A model generated the notes under the pieces. It saw nothing but the letters and a program-made list of their open reading frames with translations, did no database searches and was not told the DNA's origin. From the NCBI GenBank assembly GCA_943788835.1, contig CALSRU010000010.1:62001-126000 (forward strand): 64,000 nucleotides of DNA, written 5' to 3'. The DNA comes from an uncultured Pseudomonadales bacterium (GTDB lineage Bacteria > Pseudomonadota > Gammaproteobacteria > Pseudomonadales > UBA7434). The position numbers and the translations under genes are program-made. Positions 49,304 to 52,395 of the stretch are shown in pieces (position 1 is the stretch's first letter; every line of letters starts with the position of its first letter).

Positions 49304-49813
49304 TTACATCCGCAAGCGATCGAGTAACAGCCGCGTAAAAGGCCAACATATCGCACTAGCTAAAGCTGGGAGTATCAATGCGAAGCTAGCATAACCACCG
49401 CCGGAAAACCCCAGCATCCAATATTTAACTAATTGGTAGAGACTCACTATGACAAACACTGCAATGGCTTGCTGGAGCATTGCAAACATTCTTAAACGCT
49501 GATGAACAAGATAAACCACATAGGCCACTATGGTGAGTCCCAGAGCATGTTGACACAGTACTGCACCCATCAATAAGTCGAGCATAAAGCCCATTGACCA
49601 ACCGTAAAGCATACCTACGCGAAAAGGAGCGAACAAAACCCAGTAAATAACCAGCATGGCAGCAAACTCTGGCCTAATCCAAACAGCCCAAATAGGCATC
49701 GGCCAAATTGATGCCAGAAGACCCGCGAGCGATGTGAAGAGAAGCAAAGACCATGAGAAATAATCTGGCCCATCACCCGCTTGCACATAATTTTGCGAGC
49801 TATTCATTTGCAT
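49304..49813 (-). CDS. mreD: rod shape-determining protein MreD
   Basis: A 169-residue inner-membrane protein with about five hydrophobic helices. GMLYGWSMGFMLDLLMGAVLCQHALG is the conserved region of MreD. It works with MreB, MreC and RodA/PBP2 in lateral wall growth. The ATG at 49813 directly follows the mreC stop (TAGATG), with AAGG seven bases before it, so translation is coupled. Confidence 0.94.
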   Translation of the reverse strand: MQMNSSQNYVQAGDGPDYFSWSLLLFTSLAGLLASIWPMPIWAVWIRPEFAAMLVIYWVLFAPFRVGMLYGWSMGFMLDLLMGAVLCQHALGLTIVAYVVYLVHQRLRMFAMLQQAIAVFVIVSLYQLVKYWMLGFSGGGYASFALILPALASAICWPFTRLLLDRLRM

Positions 49814-50647
49814 CTAACGACCTTCTCGCTCGCCTGCAAATACCAGCAAAACGTAGCGGCCCCGATCGAGCTTGGCGCTTGGGCGAACGACAATGCTCAA
49901 GAAAGCCTGCCCCGGATCGGACTCAACTGATTCAACGACACCCACCGGATAACCGACGGGGAAGCGCTGCCCAAGCCCTGAACTGACTAGCAGATCACCC
50001 GCTTTAATATCGGTAGTCTCGACCATGTTGGGCAGCAACAAAGTGTCTGCACGCCCAGTTCCTTCGGCAATAGCGCGCACACCATTTCTGTTGACCTGCA
50101 CCGGTATCGCATGGCGCGAATCACTAATTAAAATAACACGAGCAGAGCCACTATTAACTTCTATAACCTGCCCTACAAGACCGTAGGCATCAATCACGGC
50201 CTGACCAATATAGAGGCCGTCTTGCGTGCCTTTATCAATAGTAATTTGATGCTGGAATGGGCTAGGCGATACGCTGATAGTTTCCGCTACCAGCACGCTA
50301 TCTTCAACGACCGTTGAAGAGCTCAACAACTCCTTAAGCCGCACATTTTGCGCGGTTAAAGACACAAGCTTTTGTAATTTGCCGCGAAGTACGCGAGCTT
50401 CGCCATGCAGACGCTCGTTTTCTTCCAACAAGTGCTCGCGCGAAGAGAAATAAGTATCAATGCCCTGCCACAGGTTACGCGGTTGCTGGCTGACCCAGTA
50501 AAAAGGGGCTGCAACCGTGGCGCCAGCATCACGCAGACCACTAAAAGCAGAAAATTTAAAATCGGCGATGAGAACCGCGAGCGAAAAACCCCCAATCAAT
50601 AATACGCGAGCGCCAACTGACGGCGCTTTACCGAAAATAGGTTTGAT
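49814..50647 (-). CDS. mreC: rod shape-determining protein MreC, start codon non-standard
   Basis: A periplasmic protein anchored by one N-terminal helix, with a coiled coil (EHLLEENERLHGEARVLRGK) and a beta-rich MreC core (VIDAYGLVGQVIEV, DSRHAIPVQVNRNGV). It scaffolds the elongasome through PBP2. A TTG at 50599 would give 261 residues but cut the membrane helix in half. Translating further upstream yields IKPIFGKAPSVGARVLL, which aligns with the E. coli and Pseudomonas N-termini. No ATG, GTG, TTG or CTG occurs between the in-frame stop (50720-50722) and 50599. Translation may start at ATC (50645-50647) after an AGGG, or the sequence may hold an error. It is also shorter at the C-terminus than E. 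coli MreC (367). Confidence 0.9.
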   Translation of the reverse strand: MKPIFGKAPSVGARVLLIGGFSLAVLIADFKFSAFSGLRDAGATVAAPFYWVSQQPRNLWQGIDTYFSSREHLLEENERLHGEARVLRGKLQKLVSLTAQNVRLKELLSSSTVVEDSVLVAETISVSPSPFQHQITIDKGTQDGLYIGQAVIDAYGLVGQVIEVNSGSARVILISDSRHAIPVQVNRNGVRAIAEGTGRADTLLLPNMVETTDIKAGDLLVSSGLGQRFPVGYPVGVVESVESDPGQAFLSIVVRPSAKLDRGRYVLLVFAGEREGR

Positions 50648-50775
50648 AAGGCTACCCTGTGCGTAAACTTCAGCAACGCTACGCGCGCTGACTGCGGTGT
50701 TTATCTGAGAAAAAACGGCCTACATGTATAGACGAATAGCGGTCAATAACGTCGTATTTAGGCGCCGCAAAAAAA

Positions 50776-52395
<1,620 letters not shown>

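Follow-up and report, generated by a model that had tools for sequence, protein, structure and literature searches.

The window, by which we mean the whole 64,000-nucleotide stretch of DNA analysed, carries mreC between mreB and mreD, an arrangement that satisfies the gene-order test for the MreC family (Table 1). The encoded MreC scored 220.2 bits against TIGR00219, above the curated cut-off of 92.75, and this was the only mreC match in the genome, which is a draft of 17 contigs. The start of mreB is given in Table 1 as an ordinary ATG; the open reading frame list places it at an upstream TTG (51867) instead. At the other end of the gene, the mreC stop codon TAG directly abuts the ATG of mreD (TAGATG, 49813-49816, minus strand), with zero gap.

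Table 1. Features of the mreC locus and their coordinates in the window.
Feature	Coordinates	Strand	Remarks
mreC start codon ATC (AUC in mRNA)	50645..50647	-	aligned with residue 1 of PDB 7eft and with the E. coli ATG
mreC from ATC	49814..50647	-	277 residues plus stop; N-terminus (M)KPIFGKAPSVGARVLLIGGFSLAVLIADF
AGGG, weak Shine-Dalgarno-like	50655..50658	-	7 nt ahead of the mreC ATC
In-frame TAG closing the mreC frame upstream	50720..50722	-	
Internal TTG, mreC residue 17, within the membrane helix	50597..50599	-	earliest canonical codon in the frame; not regarded as the start
mreB	50776..51819	-	ordinary ATG start at 51819-51817; separated by 128 nt from the mreC ATC
mreD	49304..49813	-	ordinary ATG start; begins right at the mreC stop

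On the minus strand, the mreC frame stays open between the TAG at 50722-50720 and the stop at 49814-49816. When this strand was read, no ATG, GTG, TTG or CTG was found in the frame between that TAG and the TTG at 50599-50597. The same stretch does contain three codons of the type ATT, ATC or ATA (hereafter AUH), namely ATA at 50704-50702, ATC at 50647-50645 and ATT at 50638-50636. Read from the ATC, the protein aligned with the 367-residue MreC of PDB 7eft over residues 1-276 of both query and chain, and mreC of E. coli K-12 has TTATGAAGCCAATTTTT, that is, an ATG, at the homologous codon. Two claims of the initial annotation are hereby upheld, the first by re-reading the sequence and the second by these alignments: that none of the four codons occurs between the TAG (50720-50722) and the TTG at 50599, and that the ATC at 50645-50647 stands at the expected start, after AGGG. 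The annotation was silent on the ATA at 50704-50702 and the ATT at 50638-50636. Both were rejected as starts; the ATT lies inside the KPIF motif, and the ATA lies 19 codons upstream, where the residues are not conserved across the set. It is thus confirmed that an ATC occupies the homologous start position of mreC and that the frame offers no canonical alternative upstream of it. As a separate observation, the TAG upstream of mreC is preceded by an in-frame ATG (ATGTAG, 50720-50725, minus strand); a near relative (L002) reads ATTTAG at this place, so the ATG is not conserved.

Three options had been offered for the missing start codon: a rare AUC start, a sequencing error, or a genuine shorter form that begins at the TTG. 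A sequencing or assembly error has no positive support, although the window does come from a draft genome in 17 contigs. The nearest relative, G007 (locus L002; the named record CAJQKT010000023.1 corresponds to L031), has the same mreC ATC, and its locus is identical to the window at 134 of 135 bases from -75 to +60 and at 792 of 831 across mreC. Since the same ATC is present in an independent assembly, a fault confined to one assembly cannot account for it; with AUH codons at this position in 171 of 223 genomes as well, the error option failed and can be considered all but excluded.

The 171 genomes come from a survey in which MreC was aligned with that of close relatives and of other members of the order and class. 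The search for mreC succeeded in 55 of 57 relatives, in 191 of the 194 genomes searched within the order and in 133 of the 143 searched within the class (missing in 2, 3 and 10, respectively). From these, 232 loci were taken and 8 were dropped as repeats, leaving 224 distinct loci, which represent 223 genomes and E. coli. The surveyed regions were hand-picked for spread across genera and families, and they were mostly higher-scoring matches, so weak matches are under-represented. The 223 genomes of the class were divided into 171 with AUH at the homologous codon, 29 with ATG, 11 with GTG or TTG, 11 unassigned and 1 truncated. By taxon, AUH starts were seen in 96 of the 135 families and in 120 of the 170 genera. 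The AUH codon occupied the exact homologous column in 163 loci (108 from the order and 55 from the class) and lay one codon upstream of the aligned column in 8 more. Besides E. coli, 21 loci had ATG on the exact column; the less certain rows, in which a canonical codon was seen only within three codons of the column, comprised 8 ATG, 2 GTG and 3 TTG. Some additional loci were kept outside the tally. ATG was present at or near the homologous place in the E. coli-like loci L313-L319 and in L325, L327 has ATG, L326 looks like AUH, and L328 and L329 remained unresolved; three loci from outside the class (L332, L334 and L335) have ATG near the start, and the remaining extra mreC loci are repeats of genomes already counted. 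Two class loci, L208 and L196, lack both canonical and AUH codons around the aligned start and possibly represent further non-standard starts; in L208, an ATC immediately follows the upstream stop. AUH is therefore the usual state of the mreC start codon in the sampled Gammaproteobacteria, and the model organism E. coli is an exception. The option of a rare AUC start is supported, and its frequency in the class had been understated.

Several lines of evidence indicate that translation begins at the AUH codon. In 136 of the 163 exact-column loci, the stretch from the preceding in-frame stop to the AUH codon held no ATG, GTG or TTG; in 122 there was not even a CTG, and in 33 the room between stop and AUH was no more than 3 codons. 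An example is provided by three genomes of family f20 (L057, L052 and L091), where mreC reads stop-GAG-CCG-GTC-ATC and no other start is possible. A Shine-Dalgarno match of at least 4 nt to AGGAGGT, mostly 5-9 nt away, was detected ahead of the AUH codon in 129 of the 163 loci, with 34 falling short of 4 nt, and the same scan at five shifted positions returned 8/162, 15/162, 10/163, 2/163 and 1/163. Across the set, then, the position of the ribosome site suits the AUH codon. In the window, only AGGG is present, of which just 3 nt (AGG) match the scanned motif, which puts the window on the weak side of the set. Protein conservation likewise starts at the AUH codon: K occupies residue 2 in 149 of 171 loci and F occupies residue 5 in 162 of 171, their synonymous codons being mixed. 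Upstream of the AUH codon, residue composition departed clearly at -4/-3 (G, E, R), where the codons spell out the GGAG signal, and more mildly at -1.

These data bear on the possibility that the isoleucine is internal and that translation begins further upstream at a canonical codon. In favour of this possibility, an upstream in-frame ATG, GTG or TTG does exist in 27 of the 163 exact-column loci, and the three isoleucine codons are used in about the gene's own proportions: the 171 AUH codons comprise 85 ATT, 68 ATC and 18 ATA, where 75, 78 and 17 would be expected from the isoleucine usage of the gene itself. This split fits drift among equally poor start codons, but it would fit an internal isoleucine too and so counts against the start reading. 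Against an upstream start stand the 136 loci without a canonical codon before the stop, the 33 with almost no room for one, the lack of conservation of upstream residues other than those that spell the ribosome site, and the window, which has no canonical codon upstream. We consider an upstream start to be practically ruled out.

The shorter form places the true start at an internal canonical codon, the TTG at 50599 in the window and a GTG, TTG or ATG further in in relatives, and leaves KPIF untranslated or confined to a minor form. It is supported by the TTG being the first canonical codon in the mreC frame and by the published numbering of P. aeruginosa MreC, which fits such an internal start. 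However, KPIF is kept as protein, with synonymous change. The next canonical codon also lies at differing residues from genome to genome, at residues 10-33 in 149 of the 171 AUH loci, where a start would cut into the membrane helix; in the window, a start at the TTG would cost the protein K2, K7 and R14. In addition, the ribosome-site signal at +30 was found in only 10 of 163 loci, versus 129 of 163 at the AUH codon. Taken together, a conserved KPIF, a next canonical codon that moves from genome to genome and the absence of a shifted ribosome-site signal make the TTG form very improbable.

The P. aeruginosa numbering deserves separate consideration. A structural study of P. aeruginosa MreC numbers residues Pro114/Phe115, Arg175 and Glu188/Arg190, and states that the first 14 residues cover the cytoplasmic residues and the membrane region (PMC8137920). 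The MreC of locus L057 matched 176 residues of PDB 6zlv with few differences (E 2.5e-104); 6zlv is taken here to be P. aeruginosa MreC, in keeping with that study. Counted from its ATC, the same residues of L057 are P130/F131, R191 and E204/R206, which gives an offset of 16 each time. In L057, L052, L091, L041 and L047, residue 17 is a GTG that lies in the helix and is the first canonical codon past the AUH; in L037 and L016, which belong to the same family as L057, the first canonical codon is at residue 13 and 10, respectively. Given the offset of 16 and the GTG at residue 17, the published numbering fits a start placed at that GTG. P. aeruginosa MreC thus appears to have been numbered from a position 16 residues inside the protein, within the membrane anchor, an inference that rests on L057 and not on PAO1 DNA. 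If mreC starts at AUH, as inferred, gene finders limited to ATG, GTG and TTG will misplace the start of MreC, and full-length constructs or fusions built on such an internal start would miss the true N-terminus.

The neighbouring genes served as controls. In matched loci, a canonical start was absent in 65 of 83 for mreC, in 1 of 77 for mreB (a row with an unread residue) and in 1 of 84 for mreD; across all mreC rows it was absent in 140 of 222. In genomes with an AUH mreC, mreB started with ATG in 71 of 71, and mreD with ATG in 62, GTG in 9 and TTG in 4 (n = 75), with the reservation that these starts were picked among canonical codons only. infC was used as a positive control. Among its 29 rows, 19 had AUH (one of them, L247, was judged by residue and not by codon), 8 had GTG and 2 were unclear. 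The eight GTG rows (L253, L243, L246, L250, L252, L254, L256 and L257) are those of the window's genus, where the GTG sits one codon past the aligned infC start column, versus AUH in most other relatives; IF3 autocontrol is possibly altered there. For pcnB, 17 of 30 rows had ATG in the best column for the start, and a canonical start was absent in 3 or 4 of 29 rows, depending on the column chosen.

The ribosome site of mreC differed with the start codon. A site of at least 4 nt was present in 11 of 30 ATG loci versus 136 of 171 AUH loci (Fisher p 5e-6, ignoring relatedness). The neighbours were alike in the two groups, with sites in 16 of 29 (ATG genomes) and 40 of 71 (AUH genomes) for mreB, and in 20 of 29 and 40 of 75 for mreD; the ATG set of this comparison (30 loci in, 29 scored) overlaps with the 30 ATG rows of the mreC count but is not identical to them. 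On a FastTree tree of MreC, the state changed between AUH and canonical 32 times. Correction on the tree left 8 well-supported independent ATG/AUH pairs, of which 3.8 were for the trade-off and 0.2 against, the rest being level (median p 0.125); with GTG and TTG added, there were 9 pairs, with 3.3 for and 0.3 against (median p 0.25). The trade-off between start codon and ribosome site is no longer significant once relatedness is counted, and it can be taken as no more than suggestive. The pattern resembles two routes to a single output level, as would be expected of a throttle on MreC, but no expression data are at hand. The proposal that an AUC start throttles MreC relative to MreB and MreD consequently has indirect support only, from the inverse relation of start codon and ribosome-site strength, and no output data bear on it.

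An alternative is that AUH is a genuine start without a throttling role, being merely tolerated or serving fidelity or timing, with a strong ribosome site that restores normal output. Strong ribosome sites could indeed compensate fully, and the lack of significance after correction for relatedness is in line with this alternative. Mere tolerance, however, should not hold at 171 of 223 genomes while mreB and mreD keep canonical starts, and we consider the alternative unlikely. Our preferred reading remains that mreC is translated from AUU, AUC or AUA, and that this start is a conserved throttle like those of infC and pcnB, in the window organism and the majority of sampled Gammaproteobacteria; we hold it to be likely, with a probability of about 0.82. 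The sequences themselves show where the codon lies and that it is conserved, that alternatives are lacking and that a ribosome-site signal is present. Initiation at the codon, the methionine, the low output and the dependence on IF3 are inferred.

Other forms of control at the locus were also considered. Coupling by overlap with mreB was rejected: mreB was found just upstream of mreC in 167 of the 171 AUH loci, and none of these 167 showed an overlap (gap of 6-369 nt, median 75; 128 in the window). A folded leader RNA was not supported in the window, where 50610-50775 folds no better than shuffled sequences (z +0.60). A conserved leader, suggested by the 0 mismatches between the window and L002 from -75 to -1, was dropped, as a coding bin was equally free of mismatches; further upstream, this comparison is ungapped and probably runs across an indel.

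By its codon, mreC joins the genes with an AUU, AUC or AUA start, of the kind of infC and pcnB; this is stated on sequence grounds, and the N-terminus, output and IF3 dependence of MreC are inferred. infC, which encodes IF3, shares with mreC a start of the AUU/AUC type and is repressed by IF3; that IF3 discriminates against codons of this sort has been established in infC and in sigR of Streptomyces (PMC5472188). infC is, however, self-regulating, whereas MreC has no known role in initiation, and the two genes part in the window's genus, where mreC retains AUH but the 8 infC rows read GTG. pcnB of E. coli, which encodes poly(A) polymerase I, offers a parallel from outside translation in that its AUU start limits it (Binns and Masters 2002, named in PMC9410913), but pcnB of the window's relatives differs from mreC in having mostly ATG at the best column. 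infC and pcnB have been described as the only two genes of E. coli with an AUU start (PMC9410913). Streptomyces sigR resembles mreC in having a noncanonical start that is under IF3 control and was misannotated (PMC5472188); it differs in that its codon is GTC and not AUH, and in being a sigma factor gene of another phylum. Finally, mreC of E. coli belongs to the same family and shares the operon order mreB-mreC-mreD and the position of the start codon, but it has an ATG with little Shine-Dalgarno sequence ahead. In the open-access literature searched, we came across no description of mreC as starting at a codon other than AUG; subscription papers and arXiv were outside this search, and an arXiv survey of genes that favour non-AUG starts (Gvozdjak and Samanta 2020) may list mreC.

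In the mechanism that we propose, mreC would initiate at the AUU, AUC or AUA codon, where the initiator tRNA most likely still inserts methionine, so that the protein is predicted to begin MKPIF. The poor codon-anticodon match, of the type that IF3 destabilises, would lower initiation on mreC, the action of IF3 here being inferred; in most genomes, a good Shine-Dalgarno sequence would partly offset the poor codon. The net result would be that MreC output is held low relative to MreB and MreD, whose adjacent genes have normal starts. A bolder reading, which we put forward only as a possibility, is that mreC reports on initiation-factor status in a conserved way, its AUH start being judged by IF3. 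In that case, an excess of IF3 over 30S subunits would give less MreC and less activity of the elongation machinery, and a shortage of IF3 would give more. In the window's genus, where infC has GTG, the link of mreC to IF3 autocontrol may differ. If this bolder reading is true, cell elongation would be tied to the translation apparatus in most Gammaproteobacteria, and the E. coli lineage, with its AUG, would be without the link.

AUU, AUC and AUA are very inefficient start codons compared with AUG, and here they appear to stand at the head of a key cell-shape gene. This suggests that MreC may be made in small amounts on purpose, and that its true beginning may have been missed in some published work. 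If our reading is true, an AUH start is used in a central morphogenesis gene in 96 of the 135 families sampled, and non-AUG starts would be a conserved means of setting protein ratios in a cell-envelope machine.
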